DNA from: Acholeplasmataceae bacterium
Lineage (GTDB): Bacteria > Bacillota_I > Bacilli_A > ML615J-28 > CAG-698
Assembly: GCA_012841765.1 (NCBI GenBank)
Contig: DUUA01000048.1
Location: 1 to 24,410 of the forward strand
DNA: 24,410 nucleotides
Direction: 5' to 3'
In this document: positions 5,959-24,410 of the stretch, one piece after another
How positions within the stretch are numbered: position 1 is the stretch's first letter
Layout of the letters: every line of letters starts with the position of its first letter
Translations under genes and position numbers: made by a program
Notes under the pieces: model-generated
What the model was told of the DNA's origin: nothing
The model's input: only the letters and a program-made list of their open reading frames with translations
The model's database searches: none

Positions 5959-6627
5959 ATGTTTGATGCTGTTATTTTAGCTTCAGGCGGGTCAACAAGA
6001 TTTTCAGCAAAAGTAAATAAAATGCTAGTTTCATTAAAGGCAAGACCGCTGTTTTTAATATCTATTGATAAATTTTTAAAAATAAAAGATTGTGGTAATA
6101 TAATTTTAGTTATTAGCAAAGAAATTGAAGATAATGTTCTTTCTGTCCTTAGTAATTTAAATTTGCTTGAAAAAGTTAAAGTTGTTATTGGTGGAGAAAA
6201 TAGACAAGATAGTGCATATAATGGTTTGCAATTTGTTTCGAGCGATATAGTTTTATTTCATGATGCGGCTAGACCATTAACCCTAACTAGTGATATTAAT
6301 AGAGTATATGAAGAAGTCAAAAAGCATCGAGCTGCTTTTCTTGCTAGCAAATCAACAAGTACAGTAAAAATGGTTGATGGAAAAGTTGTAACAATTGATA
6401 GAGAACATATTTTCTTTTCTGAAACTCCTCAAGGAGGTTATAAAAAAGATTTTATAAAAGCTTACCAAAAGGCAAAGAAAAAGAAATTTAATGGGACCGA
6501 TGATATGATTTTACTTGAAAAGTTTTTAAAAATAAATCCATCACCAGTTCTAAGTAGAAATAAGAATATTAAAATAACTACTATTGAAGATTATCAATAT
6601 GCAAGATATTTAGTAGGTGATAAGTAG
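5959..6627 (+). CDS. ispD: 2-C-methyl-D-erythritol 4-phosphate cytidylyltransferase
   Basis: IspD catalyses the CTP-dependent third step of the MEP (non-mevalonate) isoprenoid pathway, giving CDP-methylerythritol. The 222-residue protein shows the nucleotidyltransferase opening AVILASGGSTRF. Arg14 and Lys21 are spaced like E. coli Arg20 and Lys27. HDAARP lies at 101-106, a STVKM segment at 134-138, ETPQGG at 155-160, GTDDM at 179-183, and NIKIT with Lys205 (like E. coli Lys213) at 203-207. These cover the CTP and substrate contacts, so it should be active. A ribosome binding site TAGGTGAT (5948-5955) precedes the ATG. The stop overlaps the start of ispF by one base, the common ispD-ispF pairing. 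Confidence 0.94.
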   Translation: MFDAVILASGGSTRFSAKVNKMLVSLKARPLFLISIDKFLKIKDCGNIILVISKEIEDNVLSVLSNLNLLEKVKVVIGGENRQDSAYNGLQFVSSDIVLFHDAARPLTLTSDINRVYEEVKKHRAAFLASKSTSTVKMVDGKVVTIDREHIFFSETPQGGYKKDFIKAYQKAKKKKFNGTDDMILLEKFLKINPSPVLSRNKNIKITTIEDYQYARYLVGDK

Positions 6628-7103
6628 TGGATATAAAAATAGGACATGACTCGGATACTCATCCTTTTGTCGAAGGGAAGCTTTTATATTTAAGTGGCCT
6701 TGAAATACCTTATGAAAAAGGGCTTGATGGTCACTCTGATGGAGATGTTGTTTTACATGCAGTAGCTGGCTCCATAATTGGAGCTTTAGGATTAGGAGAT
6801 TTAGGAACTCTTTTTAAAGATGATAATCCTTATTTTAAAGACATAAGATCTGAATATTTTATTAAAAAAGTTAATGATTTGATGAAAACTCAGGGTTATA
6901 ATATTAATAATATTGATATTACAATTTATATAGAAAAACCAAAAATTAATGAGTTTTTACCTTTTATGAAAGCAAATCTATGTAAGTTATTAAATGTTTC
7001 AGAAAGTAGAATAAATATTAAGGCGACACATTTAGAAGGCTTAGGATTTATTGGAAGAGGCGAAGGAGTTACTTGTGATTCTGTTGTTCTCTTAATAAAA
7101 TAA
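6627..7103 (+). CDS. ispF: 2-C-methyl-D-erythritol 2,4-cyclodiphosphate synthase
   Basis: IspF cyclises CDP-methylerythritol 2-phosphate to the cyclodiphosphate with loss of CMP, the fifth MEP-pathway step; it is normally a zinc-dependent trimer. The 158-residue protein has the metal ligands Asp10 and His12 (DTH) and His44 (like E. coli Asp8, His10, His42), the GLDGHSDGDVVLHA loop at 32-45, GALGLGDLGTLF at 52-63, and the C-terminal KATHLEGLGFIGRGEG at 132-147. It starts with GTG at 6627, which shares its G with the ispD TAG stop; AGGTGA at 6614-6619 serves as the ribosome binding site. It is the last gene of the tightly packed block that begins upstream of the window. Confidence 0.96.
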   Translation: MDIKIGHDSDTHPFVEGKLLYLSGLEIPYEKGLDGHSDGDVVLHAVAGSIIGALGLGDLGTLFKDDNPYFKDIRSEYFIKKVNDLMKTQGYNINNIDITIYIEKPKINEFLPFMKANLCKLLNVSESRINIKATHLEGLGFIGRGEGVTCDSVVLLIK

Positions 7104-8374: not shown

Positions 8375-8824
8375 ATGAAAAAAGAAATAATTTTAAATTC
8401 AATAAAAGAAACAATTAGTCTTGGTGAAAAGTTAGGGAAAAGATTAGAAAAAAATATGGTAATTTGCCTTGAAGGTGATTTGGGAGCTGGGAAAACTACT
8501 TTTACTAAGGGGATTGCTTTAGGATTAGATATTTTTGCTGTTGTTAATAGTCCGACTTTTGTTATTATGAAAATCTATAATGGAAGATTGCCTTTATATC
8601 ATTTGGATGTTTACCGTTTAAATAATGAAAGTGGTGATGATTATCTAGTGGAATATTTTGAAGCTGGTGGCGTTTCAGTTGTTGAATGGGCAGATAATAT
8701 TTCTGAATTACTACCAAATGAATATTTAAAAATTGTTATAAAAGACCTTGGTGACGAAAAAAGAAAATTTATTTTTGAAAGTAATTCTACTACTTACGAT
8801 AAATTAATAGAAAGAGTGATTTAA
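8375..8824 (+). CDS. tsaE: tRNA t6A biosynthesis ATPase TsaE
   Basis: TsaE is the ATPase that works with TsaB and TsaD to transfer threonylcarbamoyl to A37 of ANN-decoding tRNAs. The 149-residue protein has the P-loop GDLGAGKTT at 34-42, NSPTF at 58-62, the HLDVYRL segment at 76-82 and VVEWAD at 102-107, all family marks. It is the first gene of a run in which each gene overlaps the next by 1 or 4 bases. The partner TsaC, which makes threonylcarbamoyl-AMP, is not in the window. Confidence 0.96.
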   Translation: MKKEIILNSIKETISLGEKLGKRLEKNMVICLEGDLGAGKTTFTKGIALGLDIFAVVNSPTFVIMKIYNGRLPLYHLDVYRLNNESGDDYLVEYFEAGGVSVVEWADNISELLPNEYLKIVIKDLGDEKRKFIFESNSTTYDKLIERVI

Positions 8825-9408
8825 TGAAAACACTAATTATTGATACTTCAACAAAATTTCTTTATGTATCACTTGTAGTTGATAATTTTGAAGTATATAA
8901 AAATGTTTTAGAAGGTAAGAATAATCACTCTGAACAATTAATTCCTATTATTATACAAGCGCTAAACTCTAATAATATAACTGTTGGGGAAATTGACAAA
9001 ATTATTGTTGGTAAAGGTCCAGGAAGTTATACTGGTTTAAGAATTAGTATGACTGTTGCTAAAATGTTTGCCTGGACAAAAAATATTGATTTATATCCTC
9101 TTTCTAGTTTAGATATTATTGCTAGTGGGTATTATAAAGTTAATGGAAAGTATGCAATTAAAAGTATTGCGAAAAAGAATTATATTTATGGTAAAGTTGT
9201 AGAAATAAAAGATGGTAAGGCAAATAATTTGATTGATGATGAATTTTCTCTTGAAAATGATTTTGATGAGAAAATTAAAAATATAGATTGTATTATTATT
9301 GATGAAGGAAACTATCTTTATGACGGAATAAAGATTATTAGTTTAGCGGTTGAAAAATGTGAAGATGTTCATTTGCTTGGTCCTAATTATTTGAGGAAAG
9401 TTTTATAA
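8824..9408 (+). CDS. tsaB: tRNA t6A biosynthesis protein TsaB
   Basis: TsaB is the inactive ASKHA-fold partner that dimerises with TsaD in the t6A complex. The 194-residue protein opens with the strand LIIDTST, and has HSEQL at 35-39 and the signature GKGPGSYTGLR at 63-73. It is somewhat shorter than many homologues (about 220-230), mainly in the C-terminal half, which is divergent. Its ATG shares one base with the tsaE stop and no separate strong ribosome binding site is seen, so translation is probably coupled. Confidence 0.93.
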   Translation: MKTLIIDTSTKFLYVSLVVDNFEVYKNVLEGKNNHSEQLIPIIIQALNSNNITVGEIDKIIVGKGPGSYTGLRISMTVAKMFAWTKNIDLYPLSSLDIIASGYYKVNGKYAIKSIAKKNYIYGKVVEIKDGKANNLIDDEFSLENDFDEKIKNIDCIIIDEGNYLYDGIKIISLAVEKCEDVHLLGPNYLRKVL

Positions 9409-9860
9409 TGAATTATGAAATAAGGCAAATGAATGAAAATGATATTACTGCTGTTATTAAAGGGGAAGAAGAAGTTTTTGATAAGAGTTTAGGTTTTGAT
9501 TTCTTATATCAAGATTTAAAATTGAATCCTTTTGCTTATTATTTTGTTTTAGAGATAAATGGGATTGTTGAAGGATTTTGTGGTATTTACATAAGTGATT
9601 ATATGGGTGATATTGTTAGTTTTTATGTTAGAAAAAAATATCAAAATTTAGGTTTTGGTAAACTGCTTTTAGATTTTATTCTTGAACTTTGTGAAATGAG
9701 TAAGTGTATAAGTATTAGTCTTGAAGTTAGAAAAAGCAATCTAAAAGCAATTAGTTTATATGAAAGAAATGGATTTGAAATTTCGCGTGTTCGACCAAAT
9801 TACTACGATGATGCGGAAGATGCGATTGTGTATATAAAGTATTTTGAGGTGAACAAATGA
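9408..9860 (+). CDS. rimI: GNAT acetyltransferase, RimI-like
   Basis: RimI-type enzymes acetylate the N-terminal alanine of ribosomal protein S18 or other protein N-termini. The 150-residue protein has the GNAT acetyl-CoA loop with the pattern YQNLGFGKLL (about 82-91) preceded by a VSFYVRKKY strand, and the late ALSLYERNGF-type segment (here ISLYERNGFEI) followed by RPNYYDDAEDAIVY. The position between tsaB and tsaD is the standard place for rimI in Firmicutes, which supports the name. It starts one base into the tsaB stop and ends in TGA overlapping the tsaD ATG by 4 bases. Confidence 0.88.
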   Translation: MNYEIRQMNENDITAVIKGEEEVFDKSLGFDFLYQDLKLNPFAYYFVLEINGIVEGFCGIYISDYMGDIVSFYVRKKYQNLGFGKLLLDFILELCEMSKCISISLEVRKSNLKAISLYERNGFEISRVRPNYYDDAEDAIVYIKYFEVNK

Positions 9861-10819
9861 TAGTTTTAGGGGTTGAAACAAGTTGCGATGAAACAGCTGT
9901 AAGTATAGTTCGAGATGGAAAAGAAGTTTTATCAAATGTTGTTTATTCACAAATTGCTATTCATAGTAATTATGGTGGTGTTGTTCCAGAAATAGCAAGC
10001 AGACATCATGTTCTTAAAATTACTTATGTTTTTGAGCAAGCATTAAAAGAAGCTAAATTAGAAGCGAAAGATATTGATCTTGTTGCTGTTACTTCTCATC
10101 CAGGATTAATTGGTTCGTTATTTGTGGGCATTAATGCTGCAAAAGCATTTGCTCTTGCAAATGATCTTAAATATATAGAGGTAAATCACATAACTGGACA
10201 TATTTATGCTAATTATATTGAAAGTGATTTTTATTTTCCTTTATTAGCTTTGGTTGTGAGTGGTGGCCACACCGAGTTAATTGTTATGAAAGATCATTAT
10301 CAGTATGAACTCTTAGGCCAAACTTTAGATGATGCTGTTGGTGAAGCATATGATAAAGTGGGACGAGTTTTTGGGCTTCCTTATCCTGCTGGAAAGCCAT
10401 TGGATGATTTAGCTTTAACTGGGCAACCTACATATGAGTTGCCGCTTGTTTATCTTGATAAAAATGGATATGAATTTAGTTTTAGCGGATTAAAAAGTGC
10501 TGTATTAAATGTTGTAAATAAAGCTAATATGAAAAAAGAAGAAATTAATAAAGCAAACCTTGCTGCTTCTTTTCAAAATAGCGTTGTTAGAGTATTAGTA
10601 GATAAGACTATTAATGCTGCATTAGAATATAATGTTAAGCATATTGTAGTTGCTGGAGGAGTGGCAGCTAATAGAGGGCTTAGAAAAGCACTTCATGAAG
10701 CGGTGAAATCTCTTAATGGTGTTAAGTTAACTTTTCCAAGCATGAAGTATTGTACAGATAACGCGGCTATGATTGCAGTTAGCGGTTATTTTAAATATCT
10801 ACATGAGAATGGTAATTAA
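9857..10819 (+). CDS. tsaD: tRNA N6-adenosine threonylcarbamoyltransferase TsaD
   Basis: TsaD is the catalytic subunit that attaches threonylcarbamoyl to tRNA A37. The 320-residue protein opens with LGVETSCDETAVSIV. It has GGVVPEIASRHH at 40-51, the metal ligands His111 and His115 in NHITGHIYANY, the VSGGHTELI phosphate loop, a GRVFGLPYPAG segment, GVAANRGLR, and the C-terminal YCTDNAAMIA with the metal-binding Asp. Length and motifs are normal for bacteria. GAGGTGA at 9846-9852 is a good ribosome binding site. It ends the t6A operon; no strong hairpin follows before the next promoter. Confidence 0.97.
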   Translation: MIVLGVETSCDETAVSIVRDGKEVLSNVVYSQIAIHSNYGGVVPEIASRHHVLKITYVFEQALKEAKLEAKDIDLVAVTSHPGLIGSLFVGINAAKAFALANDLKYIEVNHITGHIYANYIESDFYFPLLALVVSGGHTELIVMKDHYQYELLGQTLDDAVGEAYDKVGRVFGLPYPAGKPLDDLALTGQPTYELPLVYLDKNGYEFSFSGLKSAVLNVVNKANMKKEEINKANLAASFQNSVVRVLVDKTINAALEYNVKHIVVAGGVAANRGLRKALHEAVKSLNGVKLTFPSMKYCTDNAAMIAVSGYFKYLHENGN

Positions 10820-10895: not shown

Positions 10896-11900
10896 ATGAA
10901 ATTATTTAAAAAAGTTTGGCTTCTAGCTTTGTTTTTTGTAACAGCTATATTTTTAGTAGGTTGTGGTTCAAGAACTTATAATGCAGAAGAAACTGGTATA
11001 AAAAACGATGGAGTTTTTAATTATAAAATAATAGAAAACCAAGTAATAGTAACTGATGAAGAAACGGGAACAGAAACAACTGAGTCTCGTAATTTTATTT
11101 TAATTGTTAATTTAGTTAAACAGCAAAAAGATGTTGTCATTCCGGAAACAATTGAGGGGTTTCCTGTTAAAGAAATTGCTGATTTTGCTTTCTATGAATA
11201 TTATAAGCTTTTAGGATTAATTACTATTCCAAGAAGCAAACTAAAAACAATTGAATTTCCAAGTAGCTTAAAGAAGATTGGTAAGTTTGCTTTTTATCAA
11301 GCAAGAAAACTAGAATCTGTTGTTTTACCTAATTCAATAGAAGAGGTTTCTGATTCAGCGTTTGCTGGAGCGAATAAAGTTTCTATATTTACCATTAATA
11401 GAGTTGAAGATGAATATATTAAGTATAGTAGTAATAGTGCTGATTCTGAGCCGATTATTATAACTGGTGGAAGAAGTTCTTATGCTGGGGATTTTTTCAG
11501 ATTGACAGCTAGTGAACCAGTAAGTTGGGAATCGAGTCATCCAGCAATTGCAAAGATAGACCAAGATTTAGGAAGAATTACAACAGTAAATTCAGGAATA
11601 TACACAATAACAGCTAGATCTAGACAATCAAATAAAGTTTCAACAATTACAATGGAAGTAGTAAAAGAAGATCTAACAAAGAAAATAGCTTTTAAAGATA
11701 AATCTATGGATAGATTAAATAAATTGGAATCTCTAGTTTTAAATGTTAAGAGTCCAGAATTACTTGGAATGTCTGAAAAGTTCTTAAAACTTAATAGCAA
11801 AGCTAAGATTTATGTGCCAGAAGTATCAGTTGAATTTTATAAAAATCATAAAGTGTTCAAGAAATATGCTGACTCAATTTTACCAATTTTAGAAAATTAA
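10896..11900 (+). CDS. Lipoprotein with BspA-type leucine-rich repeats and an Ig-like domain
   Basis: The 334-residue protein starts with a lipoprotein signal peptide: basic KLFKK, a hydrophobic core, and the lipobox LVGC with Cys23 as the lipidation site. Residues ~85-165 carry LRR_5/BspA-type repeats, with phrases such as VVIPETI, EIADFAF, TIEFPSSLKKIGKFAF, VVLPNSIEEVSDSAF. Residues ~200-255 resemble a bacterial Ig-like (BIG2) domain, with VSWESSHPAIAKID and GIYTITARS. The end resembles the closing element of LRR_5 proteins, with IYVPEVSVEFYKNH followed by YADSILPI. Such proteins act outside the cell in adhesion or surface binding; the ligand is unknown. It has its own promoter, AAGGAGG at 10885-10891 and a following terminator, so it is probably monocistronic. 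Confidence 0.85.
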   Translation: MKLFKKVWLLALFFVTAIFLVGCGSRTYNAEETGIKNDGVFNYKIIENQVIVTDEETGTETTESRNFILIVNLVKQQKDVVIPETIEGFPVKEIADFAFYEYYKLLGLITIPRSKLKTIEFPSSLKKIGKFAFYQARKLESVVLPNSIEEVSDSAFAGANKVSIFTINRVEDEYIKYSSNSADSEPIIITGGRSSYAGDFFRLTASEPVSWESSHPAIAKIDQDLGRITTVNSGIYTITARSRQSNKVSTITMEVVKEDLTKKIAFKDKSMDRLNKLESLVLNVKSPELLGMSEKFLKLNSKAKIYVPEVSVEFYKNHKVFKKYADSILPILEN

Positions 11901-22057: not shown

Positions 22058-22083
22058 AATATCTACCAATAAAATAGATGTTT

Positions 22084-22104
22084 CATACGTATAGATAATG
22101 TATG
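22084..22104 (+). promoter_or_regulatory. Inverted repeat near the start of the acidic lipoprotein gene
   Basis: CATAC (22084-22088) and GTATG (22100-22104) are inverted around 11 bases; the second arm touches the ribosome binding site GGAGG (22104-22108). The 8-base palindrome ATACGTAT (22085-22092) lies inside. A CGTA at 22088-22091 recalls the -10 of ECF sigma promoters, but no matching AAC-type -35 is seen. An operator or translational hairpin is possible. Confidence 0.25.
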
Positions 22105-22116
22105 GAGGATATTAAT

Positions 22117-23286
22117 ATGAAAAATATTAAAAAATTTATTTTTGTTTTAGTTCTAGGTATTGTTGGTGTAGTGCTTTTTGGTTGTACTTTAACTGAAAAC
22201 CAAAATGTATTTAAAGAGAGTAAAGATGTAATTGCTTTTCAAGCAATTTCTAGTGTAGAACTTTTAGCAAGTTTTGAAGATGCAAAACCAGTGGTTGGGC
22301 CAGTAAGTGATTTAGCAGAAGAAACAGCAGTAGAGGAAGAATTAGATATACTTAACCATTATTTAGGAATAATGGAAAAATATTTAGGTAATAATAATGG
22401 TCTTACAATTACAGAAGAAGTATCTGAAATGGAAGGATATTCAAAATTAATGGTCATTAAGACGGTTGATATGACTGGAGCTAAATTAGAATATCATTTA
22501 TATTATAATGAAATTTTAATCACAGATGAGGAAGAAGATTTAGAAGAAGATTTAGATGTTGATCTTGATGAAGAGGACGAAGAGAAAATTGACGGTGAAG
22601 AAGAAAAAGACGAAGAAGAAGTAGAATATTTAATTGAAGGAATTTTAATTGTTAATGGTATTGAATACACTGTTGAAGGATCTAGAGAATTTGAAGAAGA
22701 TGAAGAAACTTTAATGTTAACAGCTAAAATTGATGATGATAATTTTGTAGCAATTCATTATGAAATAGAAGATGATGAAAGAGTATTTAACTATTTTGTG
22801 AAAAAAGACGGAGTTATTTCACGAACAAAAGTTGAGGTTGAAGAAGAAGACGATAAAATTGAAGTTGAACTAACATTTGTTGAAGGTACTGCAAAAGGGA
22901 AATATAAATTTGAAATGTCAAAAGACGATGACGGTACAGAAATTATAAAAATAAAGTACGTGTTAAAACAAGAAGATGAAACTATAGAAAAAGGACATAT
23001 TCGCATTTATATAACAATTGATGAAGAAACTGGCGAAGCTATTTATGATTATAAGATTTATAGTGAAAATAATGAATTTAAAGGAAAGCGACAAATGAAT
23101 AGAAAAGGTCATCATGGTGAAGTTCCAGAAGATTTTAAAGGTGGAAAAAATAGCGGAAAAAATAACGAAAATAGCAATGGGAAAAAGAATGGAAACAATA
23201 AAGGAAATAACAATGAAGATAATAACGGAATTAATAACAGAAATAACAACAGCAGTAATACAGGTAAAAAAGGTAAGAAATTTTAG
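22117..23286 (+). CDS. Highly acidic lipoprotein with an Asn/Gly/Lys-rich tail
   Basis: I place the start at 22117 rather than the in-frame ATG at 22102, because GGAGG (22104-22108) overlaps that first ATG and is correctly spaced for 22117. The 389-residue product has a lipoprotein signal (basic KNIKK, a hydrophobic core and lipobox LFGC with Cys23). Residues 36-130 form a segment similar by eye to the ectodomain of the anti-sigma-like protein encoded at 23878. After an Asp/Glu-rich stretch (about 137-170) come beta-rich, acidic segments that look like repeated strands (KVEVEEEDDKIEVELTF, KGKYKFEMSKDDDG). The last ~50 residues are low-complexity Asn, Gly, Lys and Ser. The function is unknown; the setting next to an ECF sigma factor suggests a role in the envelope response. 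No terminator separates it from the sigma gene. Confidence 0.8.
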   Translation: MKNIKKFIFVLVLGIVGVVLFGCTLTENQNVFKESKDVIAFQAISSVELLASFEDAKPVVGPVSDLAEETAVEEELDILNHYLGIMEKYLGNNNGLTITEEVSEMEGYSKLMVIKTVDMTGAKLEYHLYYNEILITDEEEDLEEDLDVDLDEEDEEKIDGEEEKDEEEVEYLIEGILIVNGIEYTVEGSREFEEDEETLMLTAKIDDDNFVAIHYEIEDDERVFNYFVKKDGVISRTKVEVEEEDDKIEVELTFVEGTAKGKYKFEMSKDDDGTEIIKIKYVLKQEDETIEKGHIRIYITIDEETGEAIYDYKIYSENNEFKGKRQMNRKGHHGEVPEDFKGGKNSGKNNENSNGKKNGNNKGNNNEDNNGINNRNNNSSNTGKKGKKF

Positions 23287-23325
23287 TGTTTAATAATTAT
23301 ATAAGCTAAATTATCTCTTAATTTA

Positions 23326-23334
23326 TGTTATAAT
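23326..23334 (+). promoter_or_regulatory. Extended -10 promoter of the ECF sigma gene
   Basis: TATAAT (23329-23334) is preceded by TGT (23326-23328). The -35 region (CTAAAT, 23306-23311) is poor, as is usual for extended -10 promoters. AAGGAG (23344-23349) and ATG (23358) follow. Confidence 0.65.
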
Positions 23335-23357
23335 TACTTTAATAAGGAGTTATTAAC

Positions 23358-23894
23358 ATGTTGGATTACGATGATTATATTGATGATTTAATTTTAAAGG
23401 ATGAAGAAACTTTTAGGATTATTTATGATGATACTAAAAATGCTGTTTTTAGTATCATCATTTCGGTTATAAAAGATAAAAATCTTGCTGAAGACATTAT
23501 GCAAGATACATATATTAAAATGATTAAGTCTATTAGAACATATAAACGTAATGGTAAGTTTATTAATTGGCTTCTTACAATAGCTAAAAATCAATCTATT
23601 GATTATTATAGGAAAAGAAGTCGAGAAGTTGTTATTGATTATAATGATAATAAAAATGAGCCTTTATTAGTAGATAATAACAATTATACTTTTTCATTAG
23701 AAACTAATAAGTTGTTAGATATGCTTAATAATATAGAAAGAGAAATAGTTATTTTAAAAATTGTTAATGATTTTAAATTTAGGGAAATTGCTGAATTTGT
23801 AGAAAAACCTTTGGGAACTGTTTTATGGCTCTATAACAAAAGTATAAAAAAAATGAAAAATCTAGAAGGGAGTAACAATGATGAAGACAAATAA
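23358..23894 (+). CDS. ECF-family RNA polymerase sigma factor
   Basis: The 178-residue protein has the two-domain layout of extracytoplasmic-function sigma factors. Region 2 (about 15-90) contains VIKDKNLAEDIMQDTYIKM, the core- and -10-binding part, and NGKFINWLLTIAKNQSIDYYRKRSRE. Region 4 (about 115-170) contains NNIEREIVILKIVNDFKFREIAEFVEKPLGTVLWLYNKSIKKMK, a helix-turn-helix for -35 recognition. It lacks the extra domains of sigma-70 group 1. The start is supported by AAGGAG at 23344-23349. The 3' end overlaps the next gene by 17 bases, the usual coupling with an anti-sigma factor, so it is expected to be held at the membrane until a signal arrives. Confidence 0.93.
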   Translation: MLDYDDYIDDLILKDEETFRIIYDDTKNAVFSIIISVIKDKNLAEDIMQDTYIKMIKSIRTYKRNGKFINWLLTIAKNQSIDYYRKRSREVVIDYNDNKNEPLLVDNNNYTFSLETNKLLDMLNNIEREIVILKIVNDFKFREIAEFVEKPLGTVLWLYNKSIKKMKNLEGSNNDEDK

Positions 23895-24410
23895 ATTAAA
23901 AAATAAGATTAAAAATGATATTTATCAGAGTACTCCTGAAGTATATTCAAAAATTAAATTAGATCAAATTAATATTGATCCTTTTCCAGAAAAAAAAGAT
24001 AGTAGAAGAAAATTAAAGTTTAATTTCAAATATGCTTTTTCTTCTCTAATAACTTTAGTAATAGTTTTTGTTGTTGTTGTCTTATTAATTAAACCTGATG
24101 GAGGGACTATTAATCAACCTGTTTACAATTATTCTCCTTTAGATTCAAATGAAGAAGTTTATGCTGTTTCTAGTGTTGTAGCTACAAATTTATATTTAGC
24201 AACATTTGCTAATACAGATAGCTTAGCAATTAAAAATAGTGGAAATGAAATGTTAATTAATACTGAATATGATAACTTAAATAAACTTTTAAATTCAGTT
24301 GAATCCTTAATTAATAATAAGGAGAAAAATAATATGAAGGAGTTAATATCGGATGATGCAGCTTATGATTTCATGATTGAAATTAATTCCACTGATTTAT
24401 TAAAATATAC
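23878..24410 (+). CDS. Probable membrane-anchored anti-sigma factor, 3'-truncated by the window edge
   Basis: The frame is open from ATG at 23878 (a second ATG follows at 23881) to the end of the window, 177 codons. AAGGGAG at 23866-23872 precedes it, inside the sigma gene. Residues 1-50 are cytoplasmic, lysine-rich, and contain STPEVYSKIKLDQI, a type of N-terminal stretch seen in Firmicutes anti-sigma proteins (tPe...kI pattern). There is no HxxxCxxC zinc motif, so it is not a zinc-type anti-sigma factor. One membrane helix lies at about 54-71. The rest is extracytoplasmic and resembles residues 36-130 of the acidic lipoprotein encoded upstream. The assignment rests on topology and the overlap with the sigma gene. 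Confidence 0.75.
   Translation, partial: MMKTNKLKNKIKNDIYQSTPEVYSKIKLDQINIDPFPEKKDSRRKLKFNFKYAFSSLITLVIVFVVVVLLIKPDGGTINQPVYNYSPLDSNEEVYAVSSVVATNLYLATFANTDSLAIKNSGNEMLINTEYDNLNKLLNSVESLINNKEKNNMKELISDDAAYDFMIEINSTDLLKY

Follow-up and report, generated by a model that had tools for sequence, protein, structure and literature searches.

A predicted extracytoplasmic function sigma/anti-sigma system in Izemoplasmatales whose lipoprotein carries the anti-sigma ectodomain

Introduction

The regulon of Escherichia coli sigma-E includes extracytoplasmic proteases, and RseB, its periplasmic regulator, has a LolA-like fold unrelated to RseA. In sigma-E/RseA/RseB, as in AlgU/MucA/MucB, an extracytoplasmic function (ECF) sigma factor and a membrane anti-sigma factor are co-encoded with an extracytoplasmic third protein, which contacts the outer domain of the anti-sigma factor (PMC8103513, PMC7593790; here and below, statements attributed to cited papers refer to the portions of their text that were available). 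A comparable predicted arrangement is found at the end of a 24,410-nucleotide stretch of DNA from an Acholeplasmataceae bacterium (assembly GCA_012841765.1, contig DUUA01000048.1, positions 1 to 24,410 of the forward strand; hereafter the window), where a lipoprotein gene (L), an ECF sigma factor gene (S) and a gene for a predicted anti-sigma membrane protein (A) lie in the order L-S-A on the + strand. Unlike RseB, L is a lipoprotein, and it is paralogous to the ectodomain of the anti-sigma protein. In its working, the system would be most like sigma-E/RseA/RseB, with CseA and BlaR1 as partial parallels.

In the sigE-cseABC operon of Streptomyces coelicolor, the lipoprotein CseA is likewise encoded alongside an ECF sigma gene, and its loss raises activity of the sigE promoter, perhaps via the outer domain of the sensor (PMC6767563). 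That system differs in having a histidine kinase as sensor, no known anti-sigma factor and a sigE promoter that is not a sigma-E target, and the available text describes no shared domain (PMC6767563); in the window and its relatives A directly follows S, and the window has no gene for a response regulator or a kinase between L and A. The outer domain of the membrane sensors BlaR1 and MecR1 resembles an induced secreted product, beta-lactamase (PMC7593790). These sensors act through repressor cleavage, with no sigma factor, and their domain has a known ligand and an enzyme fold. Carbohydrate-binding modules of the RsgI type also occur in secreted enzymes. In the SigI/RsgI systems of Clostridium thermocellum, the anti-sigma factor crosses the membrane with one helix and carries an outer sensor domain that varies, a carbohydrate-binding module being one example (PMC12203970). 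RsgI_M lipoproteins are among the predicted targets described below, a point of likeness; the systems differ in that S matches ECF sigma models and window A has no RsgI match, nor any Pfam match at E<=1 in the scan of its cut copy. RsiV-type proteins have a DUF3298/DUF4163 outer domain. SigV of Bacillus subtilis is an ECF sigma factor whose anti-sigma factor RsiV is a receptor activated by regulated proteolysis, with no lipoprotein partner described in the available text (PMC7593790). Neither window L nor window A (the latter cut) has an RsiV-type Pfam match at E<=1; judged by Pfam on the window proteins, the system falls outside both the RsgI and the RsiV families.

Izemoplasmatales are relatives of mycoplasmas, and we use this name for the order studied here after the label of locus L005 (Candidatus Izemoplasmatales), other records of the order being labelled Bacillales or Acholeplasmatales. 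Members have been described as lacking a peptidoglycan wall (PMC10868615). Judged from titles and the beginnings of abstracts in the open-access literature, with subscription papers mostly outside that scope, we recognised no description of the L/S/A layout and found none of ECF/anti-sigma signalling in Izemoplasmatales. A preceding sequence-only reading of the window had suggested, by eye, that L and A share an extracytoplasmic domain. The results below confirm that observation and indicate that it was understated; what is new is an ECF/anti-sigma variant whose third component is unusual and for which a promoter and a set of candidate targets can be predicted.

A domain shared by the lipoprotein and the anti-sigma factor

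The genes and domains concerned are as follows.

22117..23286, + strand: L, lipoprotein gene, 389 aa (open reading frame, ORF; relatives found by protein search)
22222..23118, + strand: L ectodomain common to A, predicted as 15 strands preceded by two helices, of which the second is broken (hhalign, AlphaFold model)
23358..23894, + strand: S, ECF sigma factor, 178 aa (PF04542, TIGR02937)
23878..24410, + strand: A, predicted anti-sigma factor with one membrane span, open at the window end (ORF, overlap with S)
24034..24090, + strand: predicted membrane span of A, residues 53-71, the 19 most hydrophobic residues (aligns with the spans of relatives)
24133..24410, + strand: N-terminal part of the A ectodomain, with both helices and the first strand region (lipoprotein-only model, see below)

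The sequence-only reading had aligned L residues 36-53 with A residues 93-110 and L residues 75-90 with A residues 130-145. The residue numbers of the four peptides it quoted are correct, and the alignment was recovered by both MAFFT and Smith-Waterman. The Smith-Waterman score of L against A was 65 (shuffle mean 36.9), a value reached by 0/1000 shuffles, and 1/1000 shuffles scored as high when A was compared with the first 110 residues of mature L. BLASTP of whole window L against A misses the shared alignment (best E 1.3, on a different segment); the single L/A pair is therefore only marginal, and the by-eye match needed profiles.

A hidden Markov model (HMM) of 63 lipoproteins, with window L and every A left out, scored 37.1 bits against the whole of window A (E 2.5e-13, three sequences searched). 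The membrane span falls on signal-peptide positions and accounts for some of this score. Against the A ectodomain alone it scored 32.6 bits, compared with 11.5 bits for the best shuffle (1909 scored of 2000 made). Conversely, an A-only HMM scored 172.6 bits against window L, and hhalign of the L profile against the A profile (which also contained the proteins P0007 and P0010) gave probability 100 and E 3e-61 over 307 columns. Both pairwise and by profile, the alignment is thus better than those of shuffled sequences. No reversed ORF matched the lipoprotein HMM at E<=10, and 11 matches at that threshold came from 1181 ORFs that had not been counted as family. Two of the 11 are overlooked L genes, each at a locus with a sigma gene (L134 3408-4394, 183 bits; L099 4709-5038, partial, 22 bits); the others score no higher than 26.6 bits, chiefly at the model's signal-peptide end, a region absent from the ectodomain test. 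Among nine proteins returned by a protein search with L, P0007 (E 6e-43) and P0008 (E 7e-42) combine an A-type N-terminus and membrane span with an L-like ectodomain. The protein P0001 is nearly identical to window L, and its cluster takes in a contig of up to 81 kb. All 55 of 55 A genes match the L model, a proportion that partly reflects selection because the loci were found with a profile (A2) in which L and A rows are mixed; window A is absent from that profile.

Predicted secondary structure follows the same order in both proteins. AlphaFold models of window L (md8fe28aebd59; alignment of 19 lipoprotein rows; predicted local distance difference test, pLDDT, 65; predicted template modelling score, pTM, 0.55) and of the complete A from L005 (alignment of 25 rows; pLDDT 71, pTM 0.61) were compared by element order, and each is predicted as two helices, the second broken in L, followed by 15 strands. 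The two alignments share no row, and some rows of the A alignment have L-like ectodomains. The ectodomains of L and A are one shared domain, as the by-eye alignment had proposed. That reading had also named no family with this layout. Pfam gives no match above cut-off for window L or A, and NCBIfam none at E<=1, in line with the literature survey above. Searches of the PDB with the L and A models (Foldseek, VIA-align) returned no clear match, RseB/MucB included, an absent row in such searches excluding nothing.

The domain is very acidic in both contexts: Asp and Glu make up 28% and Lys and Arg 6% of L (12% and 11% in other ORFs), and Asp and Glu make up 20% of the A ectodomain versus 12% in other ORFs. 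L as a whole is very acidic, with a tail rich in Asn, Gly and Lys. Measured along the sequence, the domain lies a median 17 residues from the lipid-bearing Cys in L (64/66 genes) and a median 19 residues from the membrane span in A (52/58 genes), and the two proteins would thus hold it at about equal distance from the membrane. Separately, a lipoprotein-like protein of 549 aa, P0025, carries the cytochrome-b5-like domain PF00173, apparently in two copies, before the same ectodomain, which hints at an added ligand-binding module.

Membership of the three window genes in their classes is supported as follows. S matches PF04542 (sigma region 2, E 3.3e-15), PF08281 (E 2.8e-5, 24.1 bits, slightly below the cut-off of 25.7) and TIGR02937 (sigma70-ECF, 63.7 bits, cut-off 42.9), and the Pfam scan lists no sigma region 3 model; S is accordingly predicted to have sigma-70 regions 2 and 4 without region 3, as in ECF sigma factors. 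L has the predicted signal peptide and lipobox Cys of a bacterial lipoprotein (LFGC, residues 20-23; Cys23 at 22183). A has the apparent layout of a membrane anti-sigma factor—directly after S and overlapping it (17 bp, or 14 bp with the second ATG as start), with a short cytoplasmic N-terminus, one span and an outer domain.

Conservation of the three-gene grouping

An initial genome scan found five loci in metagenome-assembled genomes labelled Bacillales, Acholeplasmatales and Candidatus Izemoplasmatales. The ectodomain is present in 55/90 genomes of the order. In a sample of the class, which includes the order's genomes, 125/395 genomes match at E<=1e-3, some of them weakly, and in a phylum-wide sample 61/392 match at E<=1e-10, all except G540 already in the earlier samples. 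Plasmid origin was rejected, a plasmid collection giving no near match, and among viral contigs 81 stretches matched a pattern, of which 0 encode a relative.

The complete L/S/A trio occurs in 43/83 mapped loci, the window included, four of them with one gene cut by the sequence end. The order is S-A-L in 23 loci, L-S-A in 16 (three with A cut by the contig or window end), divergent L with S-A in two (one L cut), and S-A-L-L and L-L-S-A in one each. The remaining loci, many of which stop at contig ends, hold L alone (16), S-A alone (13), none classified (5) or another part of the set (6). Outside the order the trio was found in 15/20 loci fetched, which gives no rate because these loci were picked from strong, often paired matches. 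The three-gene layout proposed from the window is therefore conserved as a grouping; its exact L-S-A order is only one of several, alongside S-A-L, divergent arrangements and L at another locus. Relatives of A begin -83 to +13 from the end of S (56 A genes in mapped loci), distances that are subject to the recognition of A genes by adjacency to S, with two added by eye, and have a median of 49 residues before the membrane span (52/58 placed). A script recognised a lipobox-type Cys in 62 L genes, and inspection by eye added 4.

A quick tree, built without bootstrap from 122 ectodomains, mostly places L and A apart, with 3 label changes against a shuffled mean of about 41. Its starred branches require at least two L/A label switches, so the domain appears to have been exchanged between the two contexts. 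The A and L proteins that accompany a second, divergent sigma type lie close together, and the A of L055 sits among lipoproteins. The placement of window A is unsure because only 27% of the tree columns are covered.

A predicted promoter upstream of L and S

Two candidate promoter elements were recognised in the window.

22066..22093, + strand: predicted ECF promoter m1 of L, CCAATAA at 22066-22072, a 15-nt spacer and CGTATA at 22088-22093 (motif match)
23326..23334, + strand: sigma-A-like extended -10 TGTTATAAT before S (by eye)

Promoter m1 ends 23 bp before the L start codon. The window has no other copy of it, and 100 shuffles gave a mean of 0.00. With up to one mismatch, CCAATAA-N15-CGTATA precedes 38/66 L, 25/58 S and 0/58 A genes. 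The second sigma type has an element of its own, GAGAAAA-N14-TGTATATA, which gave 25 matches versus 1 in the control in a genome-wide search at exact match only; 21/25 precede L or S. Either promoter type, at up to two mismatches, precedes 59/66 L, 36/58 S, 0/58 A and 10/415 other ORF starts. The spacer is 15 in 55/55 exact CCAATAA/CGTATA matches before the listed L and S genes, with 13-17 allowed, and 16 in one extra copy before the partial L in L099. The spacing AAT-17-CGT equals AAC-17-CGT in one entry of a list of sigma-E promoters (PMC6767563).

Placement of the element follows gene order: in L-S-A loci the motif precedes L in 14/16 and S in 1/16, and in S-A-L loci it precedes S in 21/23 and L in 23/23. 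Upstream of many S genes stands TGATATAAT, similar to the extended -10 before window S, and many have a TATAAT-type box near the start (by eye). In five genomes (L068, L071, L075, L080, L082) L lies on a contig other than that of S-A, away from contig ends, and keeps the promoter; L098 was excluded from this list as its contig may continue that of L099. Near 2480 in L084 (G022), a second promoter copy stands less than 100 bp after L and is followed by a short L-like fragment ending KYLEMMESFLGSIDLLNVTRTITDIESY, which looks like a degenerate duplicate.

A candidate regulon of exported proteins

Exact copies of CCAATAA-N15-CGTATA number 102, in 37/90 genomes of the order (reversed control, 8), and the ectodomain is present in 35/37 genomes with the motif versus 20/53 without it (Fisher p 1.4e-8, related genomes not being independent). 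We classified 98 distinct instances, leaving out matches in G069 and G090 and merging two duplicate pairs. Downstream of these lie 29 L genes, 24 S genes, 12 exported subtilases, 10 secreted DUF2202 proteins, 4 RsgI_M lipoproteins and 3 trypsin-like lipoproteins; that is, 82/98 instances precede L, S or one of four exported families, two of which are proteases. Pfam matches for ten target examples were PF00082 with PF09479 and PF16403, PF13365, PF23750 and PF09968, the PF09968 scores being modest and one of four below cut-off. In L157, L193 and L215 the motif falls inside a gene that resembles thiamine pyrophosphokinase (by eye), apparently through conservation of the coding sequence, and these copies were rejected as promoters and counted as "other". 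The same class holds singleton targets recognised by eye (L177, DnaK-like; L186, HD-domain-like; L214, a large membrane protein; L206, permease-like; L211, ATPase-like) and L182, probably the cut start of a subtilase.

The RsgI_M lipoproteins that follow the promoter element (L184, motif at 8431; L198 3441-4541; L200 3323-4300; L207 2803-4395; Pfam on three) are a second case of an anti-sigma-type (central) domain on a lipoprotein. A similar-looking gene stands directly before L-S-A in L107 (214-1038, by eye). In G006, G008, G009 and G010 (L080, L082, L068 and L075), one contig carries both L and, close by, a secreted DUF2202-like gene, away from S-A; the two genes are divergent, each with its own promoter copy.

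Other features of the window

A further lipoprotein gene at 10896-11900 has apparent BspA-type leucine-rich repeats (by eye); it gives a 16-bit match to the L profile that starts in the signal peptide. By eye, the gene runs at 5959-7103 and 8375-10819 resemble ispD-ispF and tsaE-tsaB-rimI-tsaD, as in any ordinary stretch of chromosome.

Discussion

Our favoured reading, in which our confidence is evenly balanced, is that this is an ECF sigma/membrane anti-sigma system in which L is a sigma-induced paralogue of the A sensor ectodomain and acts as a feedback partner that resets A. Four computed results underlie it, namely the shared domain, the conserved trio, the promoter and the candidate regulon, and from these we infer binding of S by A, cleavage of A, pairing or ligand sharing between L and A, and a negative sign for the effect of L. 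In the resting cell, A would keep S at the membrane. Surface stress would alter the A ectodomain, and A would be inactivated, probably by cleavage through an RseP-type site-2 protease. Freed S would then transcribe from CCAATAA-N15-CGTATA promoters and raise S and A themselves, the exported subtilase or trypsin-like lipoprotein, the secreted DUF2202 protein and L. Held on the same membrane face as the A ectodomain and at similar height, L may reset A, either through direct pairing or because it captures the ligand of A. We propose a feedback loop, rather than a shared ligand pocket alone, because L is a predicted sigma target.

Several points weigh against this reading. The direction of the L effect is a guess. 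The anti-sigma role of A is predicted from position, topology and overlap with S, and the N-terminus of window A matches no Pfam or NCBIfam model, anti-sigma domains included. Neither promoter type precedes 7/66 L and 22/58 S genes, and 16/98 promoter instances have nothing recurrent downstream. The recurrent families themselves were delimited with 16 reference proteins, mostly drawn from the same motif matches. Some L genes have no neighbouring S-A (e.g., L125, L129, L131), and the fetched loci of G063 have L genes without S. Finally, Peptidase_M50 matches, indicating RseP-type proteases, occur in 80/90 genomes (77 above cut-off), including genomes without the system, and 8/10 genomes without an M50 match carry the ectodomain, these perhaps being incomplete genomes; cleavage is therefore allowed by this distribution, not supported by it.

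A close rival to L as a feedback partner, possible rather than probable in our judgment, is that the sensor was copied from an effector, following the logic of BlaR1: L would bind or absorb an extracellular threat and A would sense the same threat, with no need for contact between them. The presence of L in the predicted regulon fits this, as do the seemingly greater conservation of L than A in the tree (shorter branches, by eye) and the two or more forced label switches, which make the domain exchangeable. The extreme acidity of L would suit a trap for cationic molecules; however, the A ectodomain is acidic too (20%), and the four remaining recurrent target families include two of proteases rather than traps. 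Nor was an enzyme-like conserved site noticed, without a systematic search.

It is improbable, in our view, that L instead acts positively as a co-sensor, presenting a ligand to A, a role that the sequence-only reading had also proposed. Such a role would agree with the location of both proteins on the same membrane side with the domain at similar height, and with L and A clades that branch in similar order (by eye), a pattern that species history alone would also give. Yet L is a predicted sigma target and can sit elsewhere under a promoter of its own, as would be expected of a response product more than of a co-sensor made constitutively. We consider it very unlikely that the shared domain is a relic of one ancestral membrane protein with no present functional link between L and A: most L and most A do form separate clades, but the neighbourhood is repeated, also outside the order, and the promoter is shared, including by L genes on other contigs, so a link between L and A appears to be maintained. 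Chance or common composition as the source of the likeness, for which the empty BLASTP comparison of the window pair and the acidity of both proteins might speak, is refuted by the shuffles, the reversed ORFs and the profile comparison.

More generally, with L regarded as the feedback partner of A, we tentatively propose that a lipid-anchored twin of a sensor domain could form, together with an anti-sigma factor, a self-limiting receptor pair. The twin would stand under the promoter of the cognate sigma factor, and the ratio of twin to sensor would tune surface proteolysis. Each of the two sigma subtypes would have its own twin and promoter, and the arrangement may be general in Izemoplasmatales and neighbouring orders, with a domain that has no named family or clear match among solved structures.

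A single family brings together sensor, sigma factor, promoter sequence, small candidate regulon and feedback candidate, which all lend themselves to tests in a heterologous host. It is also a natural example in which a sensor domain has been duplicated into a co-regulated surface protein, and its study would show whether such copies are dampers or effectors.

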